Notes under the pieces: generated by a model
What the model was told of the DNA's origin: nothing
The model's database searches: none
The model's input: the letters and a program-made list of their open reading frames with translations, nothing else
Shown here: in pieces, positions 24,607 through 35,855 of the stretch
How the letters are laid out: the number at the start of each line of letters is the position of its first letter
Numbering within the stretch: position 1 is the stretch's first letter
Source of the DNA: Methanosarcina horonobensis HB-1 = JCM 15518
Lineage (GTDB): Archaea; Halobacteriota; Methanosarcinia; Methanosarcinales; Methanosarcinaceae
Direction: 5' to 3'
DNA: 64,000 bases
NCBI RefSeq assembly: GCF_000970285.1
Contig: NZ_CP009516.1
Location: forward strand, 1,529,036 to 1,593,035
Translations under genes and position numbers: made by a program

Positions 24607-25065
24607 ATGCTTGAGGAATATGAGAAGAAAAGGGATTTTAGAAAGACCTCCGAACCCCCTGTTAGCCGGGAAGAAAAAAGTTCTGATAAACCTATTTTTG
24701 TAGTTCAGCGCCATGATGCAACCAACCTCCATTATGATTTTCGCCTGGAGATGGACGGCGTCCTAAAAAGCTGGGCAGTCCCCAAGGAGCCTCCGAAAAA
24801 TGCCGGCACCAAAAGGCTTGCTATCGAGACCGAAGACCACCCTCTTGGATACGCAGATTTTGAGGGAGAAATTCCCGAAGGACAGTACGGAGCCGGCAGG
24901 GTTGAGATCTGGGACAGTGGTACATTTGAGCTTTTAAAACGTAACGAGAAAGAAATAATTGTAACGCTTCACGGGGAAGAACTTGAAGGGGACTATGTAC
25001 TTATAAAGACAAAGTACGGAAAAGAGGATAAAGGGTGGTTATTTTTCAAGAAAAAAATCGATTAA
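24607..25065 (+). CDS. Stand-alone LigD-type 3'-phosphoesterase
   Basis: A 152-residue DNA-repair enzyme that removes 3'-phosphate and ribonucleotide ends, the same fold as the N-terminal domain of bacterial LigD but here a free protein as known in archaea including M. barkeri. The active-site pattern is complete: H36, D44 and R46 in RHDATNLHYDFRLE, and H78 and Y82 in EDHPLGYADFEGEIPEGQYG, spaced as in bacterial LigD. The ends GVLKSWAVPKEPP and GDYVLIKTK are also typical. No Ku or LigD ligase gene is nearby. The start ATG at 24607 begins a basic N-terminal tail. Confidence 0.93.
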   Translation: MLEEYEKKRDFRKTSEPPVSREEKSSDKPIFVVQRHDATNLHYDFRLEMDGVLKSWAVPKEPPKNAGTKRLAIETEDHPLGYADFEGEIPEGQYGAGRVEIWDSGTFELLKRNEKEIIVTLHGEELEGDYVLIKTKYGKEDKGWLFFKKKID

Positions 25066-25122: not shown

Positions 25123-25184
25123 TAGTCAACTGAAAATAAGTCAATTGAAGGTAAGTCAACTAAAGTAAGTCAACTGAAAGGTAA
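25123..25184. repeat. Four iteron-like repeats upstream of the DUF4325/PIN pair
   Basis: The core GTCAAC (one GTCAAT) occurs at 25125, 25140, 25155 and 25169, each inside AAGTCAACTGAA-like units with a 14-15 base period. They lie 176-235 bases before the DUF4325 gene and could be operator sites. Confidence 0.6.
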
Positions 25185-25359
25185 ACCGACAAAGTTATTG
25201 AAGGTGACAGGAGAAGATGTTGAGAGGATATTTAGTTTAAGGCATTAGCAAAGAATAATCCGTAAGAATATTGATGAGTAGCTGGTAATAGCTGAGGAAT
25301 TCTCAGCAGGTGTCCGGCTCAAAACCTTACTTCTTGATACATAGTGCGGGAGTGATAAA

Positions 25360-25731
25360 ATGGGGAAGGCTACTGAAGAGAAGGTAAAAATAAAAATTAT
25401 TGAAGCTGCAGGAATCAACTGCTGTGTTGCAGCCTGTGACGGGCAGAAAGTGCATGATAAAGTTGCAGATGCTTTCAGCAAAAACAGGAAAGTTGAGCTC
25501 TCATTTTCAGAGACTGACGAACTTACGCCTGCCTTTTTAAACGCGGCTGTGGGACAGCTTTACGGGACTTTCCAGGCTGCCCTGATTGAGAAAAATCTTT
25601 CTTTTACGGACCTTGACCCTGAAGATGAGGTAATCCTTAAGAGAGTGATGGAGCGGGCAAAAGGCTATTTTGAACATGCATATTCCTGCAGAAAGGCGCT
25701 CAGGGATGTGATAGGAGGCGAAGATGCCTAA
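25360..25731 (+). CDS. STAS-like DUF4325-type protein
   Basis: A 123-residue protein. Its centre, KVELSFSETDELTPAFLNAA then VGQLYGTF, matches the STAS-like DUF4325 pattern (a beta strand, a T/S-rich turn and a helix with FLNAA). The C-terminal helices contain acidic and basic residues and end in RKALRDVIGGEDA. It overlaps the following PIN-domain gene by 8 bases, a spacing seen for antitoxin-toxin pairs, which makes an antitoxin or regulator role plausible but unproven. Iteron-like repeats precede it. Confidence 0.65.
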   Translation: MGKATEEKVKIKIIEAAGINCCVAACDGQKVHDKVADAFSKNRKVELSFSETDELTPAFLNAAVGQLYGTFQAALIEKNLSFTDLDPEDEVILKRVMERAKGYFEHAYSCRKALRDVIGGEDA

Positions 25732-26347
25732 GAGTGTCCACCGCGCAACGGTTTATCCGGTAAGGCGCAGTGTAAGGCTTCGTCCCGGAAAAACCCTTCC
25801 TGTAAAGCCGAGCCCGGCTCCTATCCATTCTGTAGAAACCTATGACTTTCCCCCAGAAAAAAGTTATTTCTTTGACACCAACATCTGGCTGTATATCTAC
25901 GGCCCTATAGGCTGGCCTGACCAGAAGTCGGGCATATATTCCAGAGCTTTAAGAGAAATCCGGAACTCAAACGGTACGATCTATATAAACTGCATGATAA
26001 TCTCTGAATTCATCAATGCCTTCTCAAGAATCGAGTTCAAGCAGCAGACCACTTATTCACATTTCAAGGAGTTCAGGAACTCGCTCAGCTTCCGCCCGGT
26101 TGCTGAAGATATTGCCTCAAACGTAAAAAAAATCCTCAGAAATACCCTTGCCTGCGACTCGGACTTAAAAGTCATAGACCTGCCTGAAATCATGCGCTTC
26201 TTCGAGCAAGGAAAATATGACTTTAATGACCTTCTCTTTGCAGAGATCTGCCGCGCCAAAGGCCTGATGTTTGTAACACATGATAAGGACTTCAGCGAAC
26301 TCGGGGTCGAGATTTTGACTGCAAATGAAAAGCTGCTGCGCAGGTGA
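25724..26347 (+). CDS. PIN-domain ribonuclease (VapC-like)
   Basis: A 207-residue protein with a proline- and arginine-rich N-terminal extension (about 45 residues) followed by a PIN domain. Acidic catalytic positions are visible: FFDTNIWLY (D), IISEFINAF (E), DFNDLLFAEI (D) and THDKDFSELG (D). PIN proteins cut RNA, often tRNA, as VapC toxins. The gene overlaps the DUF4325 gene by 8 bases and no VapB-type antitoxin is present, so the pair would be an unusual toxin-antitoxin module. The long N-terminal tail is not typical of VapC. Confidence 0.8.
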   Translation: MPKSVHRATVYPVRRSVRLRPGKTLPVKPSPAPIHSVETYDFPPEKSYFFDTNIWLYIYGPIGWPDQKSGIYSRALREIRNSNGTIYINCMIISEFINAFSRIEFKQQTTYSHFKEFRNSLSFRPVAEDIASNVKKILRNTLACDSDLKVIDLPEIMRFFEQGKYDFNDLLFAEICRAKGLMFVTHDKDFSELGVEILTANEKLLRR

Positions 26348-26620: not shown

Positions 26621-26866
26621 ATGGAAGAAACGTACAGATTTTCAGCTGTAGTTCAGAAGGAAGGAAAATGGTATGTTTCCTGGTGTCCGGAGCTTGATAT
26701 TGCAAGCCAGGGAGAAACAATTGAAGAAGCCATCGAGAACCTGAAGGAAGCACTTGAACTCTACCTTGAGGACGAAGATGCCCAGATCCCGGCTGCCGGA
26801 CAGGTTTTTACTACAACGGTAGAGGTCTCTTCCCATGCTAAAACTTCCCACCCCGTCAGCTCGTGA
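26621..26866 (+). CDS. hicB: HicB-type antitoxin, locus 1
   Basis: An 81-residue HicB-fold protein: YRFSAVVQKEGKWYVSWCPE, then LDIASQGETIEEAIENLKEA, the usual partial RNase H-like strand and helix. It neutralises the HicA RNase encoded by the overlapping next gene. It has no C-terminal DNA-binding domain, as in short archaeal HicB. Its last 32 bases overlap the start of hicA. Confidence 0.85.
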   Translation: MEETYRFSAVVQKEGKWYVSWCPELDIASQGETIEEAIENLKEALELYLEDEDAQIPAAGQVFTTTVEVSSHAKTSHPVSS

Positions 26867-27029
26867 AGTCATAAGGGCTCTCAGCAGCCAGGGATTTCAG
26901 GTTGTATCTCAGAGGGGCAGTCACATCAAAATGAAAAAGGTAGTTTTGACTGAAACGCATGTTGTTATTATTCCAGATCATTCAGAAATCCCTGCAGGAA
27001 CCTTAAAGTCTGTTATTCGGCAAGCATGA
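26835..27029 (+). CDS. hicA: HicA-type toxin, C-terminally cut, locus 1
   Basis: A 64-residue HicA mRNA interferase with the double-stranded-RNA-binding fold and the active-site histidine in RQRGSHIKM-like sequence (QRGSHIKMKK). It ends VIRQA with TGA, where family members continue (compare LKQADVSLEELLEHL in the second copy). The same frame continues after the stop with MTDEE and then TAG, so a glycine-to-stop change appears to have shortened the tail. Toxicity may be kept or lost. Confidence 0.75.
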   Translation: MLKLPTPSAREVIRALSSQGFQVVSQRGSHIKMKKVVLTETHVVIIPDHSEIPAGTLKSVIRQA

Positions 27030-29969: not shown

Positions 29970-30176
29970 ATGCGGTTTACAATCAAACTTGAAGAATCTG
30001 AGGAAGGAGGCTATACCGCTCAGTGCCTTGAAATTCCTGCAGCTATTAGCGAAGGAGATACTAAAGAAGAGGCACTTGAAAACATTAAGGAAGCTATCCA
30101 GCTTGTTCTGGAAGTAACAAGAGAGCAGGCTCAGGTACTGGGAGAAATCGCTACAGTGGAGGTTTCAGTTGGCTAA
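29970..30176 (+). CDS. hicB: HicB-type antitoxin, locus 2
   Basis: A 68-residue HicB (MRFTIKLEESEEGGYTAQCL, EIPAAISEGDTKEEALENIK). It is the antitoxin of the next gene, whose TTG start overlaps its last eight bases. The protein has only the HicB core and no DNA-binding tail. The 3' end resembles the relic at 27045-27105. Confidence 0.88.
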   Translation: MRFTIKLEESEEGGYTAQCLEIPAAISEGDTKEEALENIKEAIQLVLEVTREQAQVLGEIATVEVSVG

Positions 30177-30384
30177 ATTGCCTTCAGCTTCTGGAAAAAA
30201 AGTTATAAAAGCTCTAGGAAAACTGGGTTTTGTTATTGTAAGGCAGAGAGGAAGCCACGTAATTTTGCAAAGAGAATCAAATCTGGTCACTGTCCCACTT
30301 CACGATCCTATTAAAAAATCTACATTGAATGCAATCCTGAAACAGGCTGACGTTTCACTTGAGGAATTGCTTGAGCACCTTTAA
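30169..30384 (+). CDS. hicA: HicA-type toxin, locus 2
   Basis: A 71-residue complete HicA RNase: LPSASGKKVIKALGKLGF, the catalytic histidine in RQRGSHVILQ, VPLHDPIKKSTLNAILKQAD and the helical tail LEELLEHL. It starts with TTG at 30169 inside the end of hicB. Unlike locus 1 its C-terminus is intact, so this is the better candidate for an active module. Confidence 0.9.
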   Translation: MAKLPSASGKKVIKALGKLGFVIVRQRGSHVILQRESNLVTVPLHDPIKKSTLNAILKQADVSLEELLEHL

Positions 30385-34722: not shown

Positions 34723-35124
34723 CTATTGGCTCATAAAGAAATTATAACACATGTAACGTTTTCTTCTTAAGGAAAAGATAAAACAGTAAAATCTCATACC
34801 GGCACAAGTTCCCTTTACCGGCACAAGTTCCCTTAATACATCGTCTTTCATCATCGGATGAAGAGCCCTTTCCGAAACAACATCGACAGAGACTCCAAAT
34901 AGGTCTTCAAGATAAAATCCAAGCCCTGTAAGGTGTAATAGTGTTGCTCTTTCTCCAAATCTTACTAAGACATCGATATCATTTCCCTCTTTTTCCTCCC
35001 CACGTGCGTATGAGCCGAAAATTCCTACGACTTCAGCTTTGAATTTTTCTTTAATTTTGTCCTTTCTTTCCTGGATAAGAAGCCGGATCTGATTAACATC
35101 GATGTGTGTTTCTTTATTTTCCAT
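34723..35124 (-). CDS. MntA-type minimal nucleotidyltransferase, C-terminus altered by a 19-base duplication
   Basis: A 133-residue frame. Residues 31-55 contain the nucleotidyltransferase signature GIFGSYARGE...NDIDVLVRF with metal ligands D49 and D51. Relatives AMPylate HEPN toxins (MntA/HepT). The family normally ends shortly after VLRELVPV. Here a perfect 19-base tandem duplication (34797-34834) destroys the original stop and shifts the frame, adding a cysteine-rich tail (GTCAGMRFYCFIF). No HEPN partner gene is next to it. Confidence 0.8.
   Translation of the reverse strand: MENKETHIDVNQIRLLIQERKDKIKEKFKAEVVGIFGSYARGEEKEGNDIDVLVRFGERATLLHLTGLGFYLEDLFGVSVDVVSERALHPMMKDDVLRELVPVKGTCAGMRFYCFIFSLRRKRYMCYNFFMSQ
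34797..34834. repeat. Perfect 19-base tandem duplication inside the nucleotidyltransferase gene
   Basis: TACCGGCACAAGTTCCCTT occurs twice in a row (34797-34815, 34816-34834). Without one unit the gene would end ...RELVPV with TGA. Confidence 0.9.
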
Positions 35125-35185
35125 AGTGTCCGTCTCCTATGTTTTCAGATTTTTGTATTTTAACTCAGATATACATAACCATAAA

Positions 35186-35551
35186 TTAGTCTGCTTGAGA
35201 GACCATTGAGACCGGAACGCACTGCACATCGTCAAGCGGTAATTCGACTGAGGCCACTTCATCAAGGATATGTTTTCCAATCCTGGGTTTGAGTCCTGTT
35301 CTTGTCACCAGATCTACTTTCACTTCCAGGAGGTCTCTCAGGTAGTATTTAAGCTCGATATATTTCAAGAGACCAGGCGCTTCGTCGAATTCCACAAGGA
35401 TATCAAAGTCACTTTCACCTGTTTGTTCCCCACGGACGTATGAACCGAAAACTCCTGGATAGCTCACGCTGTACTTTTCTTTTATCTCCGGCAGGTGTTG
35501 TCTGAGTATTCTTATGTAATAGTCAGCATCCTTGAGTTGTTGGGAAGGCAT
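35186..35551 (-). CDS. MntA-type minimal nucleotidyltransferase
   Basis: Start placed at ATG 35551 (MPSQQLKDADYYIRIL), since the longer TTG version only adds a lysine-rich leader. The 121-residue product carries the full signature GVFGSYVRGEQTGESDFDIL with two catalytic aspartates, followed by the usual LLKYIELKYYLRDLLEVKVD. Such proteins act as antitoxins of HEPN toxins by adding AMP. No HEPN gene is adjacent; the only neighbour is another MntA-like gene on the same strand. Residues after ASVEL (about the last 20) are unusual. Confidence 0.8.
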   Translation of the reverse strand: MPSQQLKDADYYIRILRQHLPEIKEKYSVSYPGVFGSYVRGEQTGESDFDILVEFDEAPGLLKYIELKYYLRDLLEVKVDLVTRTGLKPRIGKHILDEVASVELPLDDVQCVPVSMVSQAD

Positions 35552-35855
35552 TTTCCTTTCTTTCCTTTTTTGTTCTTTGTTACTCAATTACTACTGAATT
35601 ATAATAGCTATTTTCTCTATAATAGTTATCCGATCCCAAAAATGAGTTTCAGATTACAAAATCTAAATATTTATTTAGTTGTCAATTTCTTATCTAAGTA
35701 AAAAGATCATAACAGTTTGGGTATCTATATCTAATCTTAAACCGAATTATAGCAACTGCAGATCACTTCTCTCCAGAATAGGCACTTAATATCTGCTGAC
35801 ATCCTTCCCAGACTCACAGCCAGTTTATCAAATATAACTGAAAGAGGCTCAAACC

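Follow-up and report, generated by a model that had tools for sequence, protein, structure and literature searches.

The question raised by this locus is what kind of system is formed in Methanosarcina horonobensis by a gene for a small STAS-like protein that runs into a gene for a PIN-domain nuclease. Within the window, that is, the whole stretch of 64,000 nucleotides analysed, the two genes had initially been annotated as a candidate new type of toxin-antitoxin (TA) pair. The type is not new, since VapS and VapC of the vapKSC operon, which consists of VapK (STAS plus GHKL kinase), VapS (STAS antitoxin) and VapC (PIN toxin), have already been tested as an antitoxin-toxin pair and their Escherichia complex has been solved as PDB 9Z7O (Chambers et al. 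2026, PMC13373217). A STAS-like antitoxin for VapC is thus already known, and the new part is the kinase-less, phospho-dead form found in Methanosarcina. We consider it probable that this pair is a derivative of VapKSC which lacks the kinase and has become chromosomally fixed in Methanosarcina and its sister genus. The features discussed here are the following, with positions given in the window.

24607..25065, + strand: LigD_N (3'-phosphoesterase) gene, the upstream syntenic neighbour (PF13298, E 5.9e-41)
25123..25178, + strand: four direct repeats with a period of 15 nt, a strain-level expansion that is not genus-wide
25349..25356, + strand: GGAGTGAT, candidate vapS ribosome-binding site from reading of the sequence, alike in close relatives
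25360..25731, + strand: vapS-like gene, 123 aa, predicted DUF4325/STAS-like antitoxin (PF14213, E 2.5e-15)
25528..25530, + strand: codon CCT for VapS Pro57, aligned to the Ser48 phospho-acceptor of Escherichia VapS
25714..25718, + strand: GGAGG, candidate vapC ribosome-binding site from reading of the sequence, within the 3' end of vapS
25724..25731, + strand: overlap of the vapS and vapC reading frames, 8 nt
25724..26347, + strand: vapC-like gene, 207 aa, predicted PIN nuclease (PF01850, E 1.1e-8, above the Pfam cut-off)

Both open reading frames, their domain assignments and the 8-base overlap were confirmed as first annotated.

Relationship to known systems

As a single sequence, VapS matched Escherichia VapS (9z7o_A) in a PDB search with an E value of 4.1e-8, and a family profile of 45 relatives improved this to 1.6e-25. 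The single-sequence search with VapC missed Escherichia VapC, which was recovered (9z7o_C, E 3.7e-12) as the only match of a profile built from 38 PIN relatives; the VapS and VapC of 9Z7O were the sole credible solved relatives in both family-profile searches. Homology to the two Escherichia proteins extends over nearly their full length, and vapS lies directly 5' of vapC, as in VapKSC. The predicted model of VapS (mean pLDDT 84.5) ends, like the Escherichia protein with its STAS domain and C-terminal helix, in a long helix at residues 87-118. No significant STAS match came from a Foldseek search with this model, and 9Z7O was absent among the listed hits. Rows from annotated records were omitted from the input of the structure predictions. 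The VapC model (pLDDT 87.5, about 56 over the first 30 residues) gave Foldseek matches to VapC-type PIN structures, and the acidic active site known from Escherichia VapC is intact in it, with Asp51, Glu95, Asp166, Asp169 and Asp187 invariant among 40 relatives and Asp189 nearly invariant. The Methanosarcina pair differs from VapKSC in that vapK is missing, the acceptor position is occupied by proline, and the PIN core of VapC is preceded by a basic N-terminal extension of about 25-40 residues (about residues 1-30 in the window) that is not present in kinase-linked relatives.

In Escherichia, VapS neutralises VapC while leaving the active-site Mg of the toxin in place, and neutralisation is abolished by S48E or by loss of the C-terminal region (PMC13373217). 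VapK is proposed to free VapC through phosphorylation of VapS Ser48, its activation by ssDNA being the authors' model, and the operon protected E. coli by about 2 logs against one phage (PMC13373217). The 289 vapKSC loci described are from bacterial groups, and 36% have other immune genes nearby (PMC13373217), whereas the Methanosarcina locus is archaeal and core-chromosomal.

The pair resembles VapBC (type II TA) in having a PIN toxin, as judged from PF01850 and the Foldseek matches, whose gene is immediately preceded by a small gene for the antitoxin, but its antitoxin is the STAS-like DUF4325 protein rather than a VapB with a DNA-binding N-terminal domain. It shares with CapK-CapS the STAS plus GHKL-kinase logic of the wider family; CapS, however, is a transcription repressor with a DNA-binding wHTH (PMC13373217), which lies at its C-terminus and binds palindromic operators, whereas VapS has no wHTH and pairs with a nuclease. 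No match of VapS to a DNA-binding family was found in Pfam or NCBIfam, the predicted STAS domain being followed only by a helix, and neither PADLOC nor NCBIfam was informative on the pair.

Distribution and inheritance of the pair

In the family, 101 genomes were compared, and the pair is present in 22 of 24 Methanosarcina, in all four sampled members of the sister genus and in one more distant genus; it is thus conserved well beyond this strain, a point that the initial annotation had left to be checked. The two reading frames overlap slightly or abut in nearly all relatives, with the ATG at the same place. Median dN/dS values were 0.128 for VapS and 0.116 for VapC (about 150 pairs each), indicating purifying selection on both genes. 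In both genera the genes upstream of the core pair, in a conserved order, are of DHH type, rubrerythrin-like and LigD_N, usually with one for a C1-like protease as well; the DHH-type and C1-like protease names are our reading of the open reading frames. At every core locus examined in Methanosarcina and the sister genus the neighbour was LigD_N, and the gene content 3' of the pair is variable. The pair is a vertically conserved part of the Methanosarcina core chromosome. Also 3' of the PIN gene in the window are two HicB-HicA-like pairs (26621-27029 and 29970-30384), the HicA of the first being backed by Pfam (26835-27029) and the second pair being judged by eye, and two proteins at 34723-35587 that match PADLOC PDC-S09 models and by eye are MNT-type nucleotidyltransferase-like.

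Of the archaea, the genomes G025 and G043 have full vapKSC as a second copy, and G059 and G181 have it too; elsewhere it was found in bacteria, on a Deinococcus plasmid and on viral or prophage contigs. In the VapC tree the kinase-less copies formed one clade (99/96), sister to the vapKSC of Methanosarcinaceae (97/84) and nested within vapKSC.

A domesticated RNase would also suit the place of the pair in the core genome, its vertical inheritance, the upstream neighbours kept in common, LigD_N among them, the strong purifying selection and the loss of the stress switch. The pair would then have given up its role as a stress toxin and consist of a housekeeping nuclease of RNA processing or RNA repair and its own inhibitor, perhaps connected with the 3'-phosphoesterase encoded next to it. 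Conservation of neighbours alone, however, is no proof of function; LigD_N is separated from the pair by about 110-430 nt, and one genome (G098) has kept LigD_N although the pair is absent. VapC was moreover never found without VapS, the two being paired in all 27 VapC-bearing genomes of the family, as for a toxin that needs its antitoxin, and we regard the housekeeping explanation as rather unlikely.

Kinase and phospho-acceptor

No VapK was found beside the core pair in the Methanosarcina neighbourhoods examined, and searches of all the sampled Methanosarcina genomes (22 with the pair, 2 without) recovered no ortholog of it. The best scores of VapK queries in Methanosarcina were about 20-24 bits, compared with 420-445 bits for true VapK, and these weak matches were to GHKL domains, mostly within open reading frames of 500-1300 codons. 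The phospho-acceptor has been lost as well. In a profile alignment of all copies, the acceptor residue of kinase-linked VapS was Ser (n=86) or Thr (n=2), and in the intact kinase-less VapS-VapC pairs it was Pro in all; in ten viral or prophage vapKSC loci it is Thr. The initial annotation was right to give the VapC-like PIN protein a STAS-like partner, but it had overlooked both the absence of VapK and the replacement of the acceptor Ser by Pro.

Two kinase-linked copies (L231 and L233) have neither Ser nor Thr; these are distant members of DUF4325, and no VapC accompanies them. Four rows with Ser that had been scored as having no kinase were rechecked: L150, which had been missed through reading-frame bookkeeping, and L247, in which the order is S-C-K and not K-S-C, do carry the kinase; L224 retains a kinase fragment; and L107 is a kinase-less VapS on a contig that ends downstream. 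Other loci without the kinase included one from Dadabacteria (L201; 3911-4731), in which VapS has Pro and an extended C-terminal tail and the next gene is an ordinary PIN gene with a frameshift, one from the phylum Nitrospirota (L225) with Pro and a truncated VapC, and one from the phylum Chloroflexota (L244) with Ala and a broken VapC. In two archaeal loci, L098 (7653-8012) and L106, the latter interrupted and situated at a contig edge, VapS has Ala and neither kinase nor VapC was found. These five loci are decaying or solitary and so fit relaxed constraint after loss of the kinase, whereas the Methanosarcina pair is intact and under purifying selection. Among intact genes the change from Ser to Pro happened once in evolution, so that it is tied to kinase loss by a single clade and a few decayed or orphan loci.

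The solitary VapS genes of L098 and L106 both lie near a TPR gene, and that of L098 adjoins an HsdM-like gene. On a viral contig (L257:2726-4369; IMGVR_UViG_3300025648_000012) a BCS1-like AAA+ ATPase carries a C-terminal VapS domain with Met at the acceptor position, near which VapK or VapC was not detected; it is possibly a phage phospho-dead VapS.

SpoIIAA and RsbV, which are anti-sigma antagonists, have a STAS fold whose helix 2 begins at the phospho-acceptor, and in the VapS model Pro57 sits at this same place (predicted helix 57-63). VapS differs from them in that its partner is a nuclease and its acceptor has been lost. A phospho-switch would persist if another GHKL or Ser/Thr kinase phosphorylated VapS in trans, for example at Thr56, the residue beside Pro57, which is retained in all kinase-less copies inspected and could be a target for an unrelated kinase; other GHKL-domain kinases are present in the genome. 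The same Thr, however, is common in kinase-linked copies beside the real acceptor, so that it is not a new site, and a VapK-like STAS plus GHKL protein was not found in the genome. Phosphorylation in trans appears to us improbable.

Upstream repeats and proposed action of the pair

The repeats that the initial annotation had described upstream of vapS are present as four 12-nt copies at spacings of 15, 15 and 14, for which TRF gave a period of 15, 3.9 copies and 83% matches. The array is more than chance, because dinucleotide shuffles of the intergenic region gave at most 2 copies in 60 trials compared with the 4 observed, and because 4 of the 42 genome-wide matches at one mismatch or fewer fall within these 56 bp. 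The repeats lie about 180-237 nt before the vapS start, and in the other Methanosarcina examined the repeat is absent or present as at most one imperfect copy. Directly 5' of vapS, members of the sister genus (L024, L026, L131 and L132) carry other tandem repeats, about 16 nt long (TTGAATCAACCTTAAC-like) and varying in copy number. Since the sister genus has its own, different repeats, this intergenic region appears prone to growing repeats, and an operator role is not implied. The proposal that VapS forms a new autorepressing TA pair by binding the four repeats as iterons, for which their occurrence beyond chance and the repeats of the sister genus might be cited, was rejected as highly improbable, because conserved operator repeats at the promoter were not found across the genus, the array is distal to the start, and where CapS has its DNA-binding wHTH, VapS has a C-terminal helix.

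If the pair is instead a kinase-less derivative of VapKSC, VapS would be produced from the gene that directly precedes and overlaps that of VapC, and by analogy with Escherichia would use its STAS face and C-terminal helix to keep a toxic VapC inactive in a complex. With VapK absent and Pro57 in the position of the acceptor Ser, release by phosphorylation cannot operate. VapC, an RNase by homology, would then be freed only by other means, for example when VapS is lost, turned over or diluted. With some hesitation, we suggest more broadly that a kinase-triggered TA switch became a stable pair independent of the kinase before Methanosarcina and its sister genus diverged, with the kinase lost, the acceptor locked as Pro and the basic N-terminal extension of VapC perhaps providing a new input for control or target. 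It may be, as part of the same tentative reading, that acceptor loss accompanies kinase loss more generally, since the acceptor is missing as well from the decayed or solitary VapS copies and from the one viral copy fused to an AAA+ ATPase.

VapKSC has been described in bacteria as a phospho-switch triggered by DNA damage or phage, and the methanogen form is a natural phospho-dead state of it. As both partners have stayed intact for a genus or longer, the role of VapS-VapC without its trigger can be asked in archaea that have genetic tools. The comparison also adds archaeal vapKSC loci to the known set, and it suggests a sequence rule for switchable STAS antitoxins, in which Ser or Thr at the acceptor position would go with the presence of the kinase and Pro, Ala or Met with its absence.
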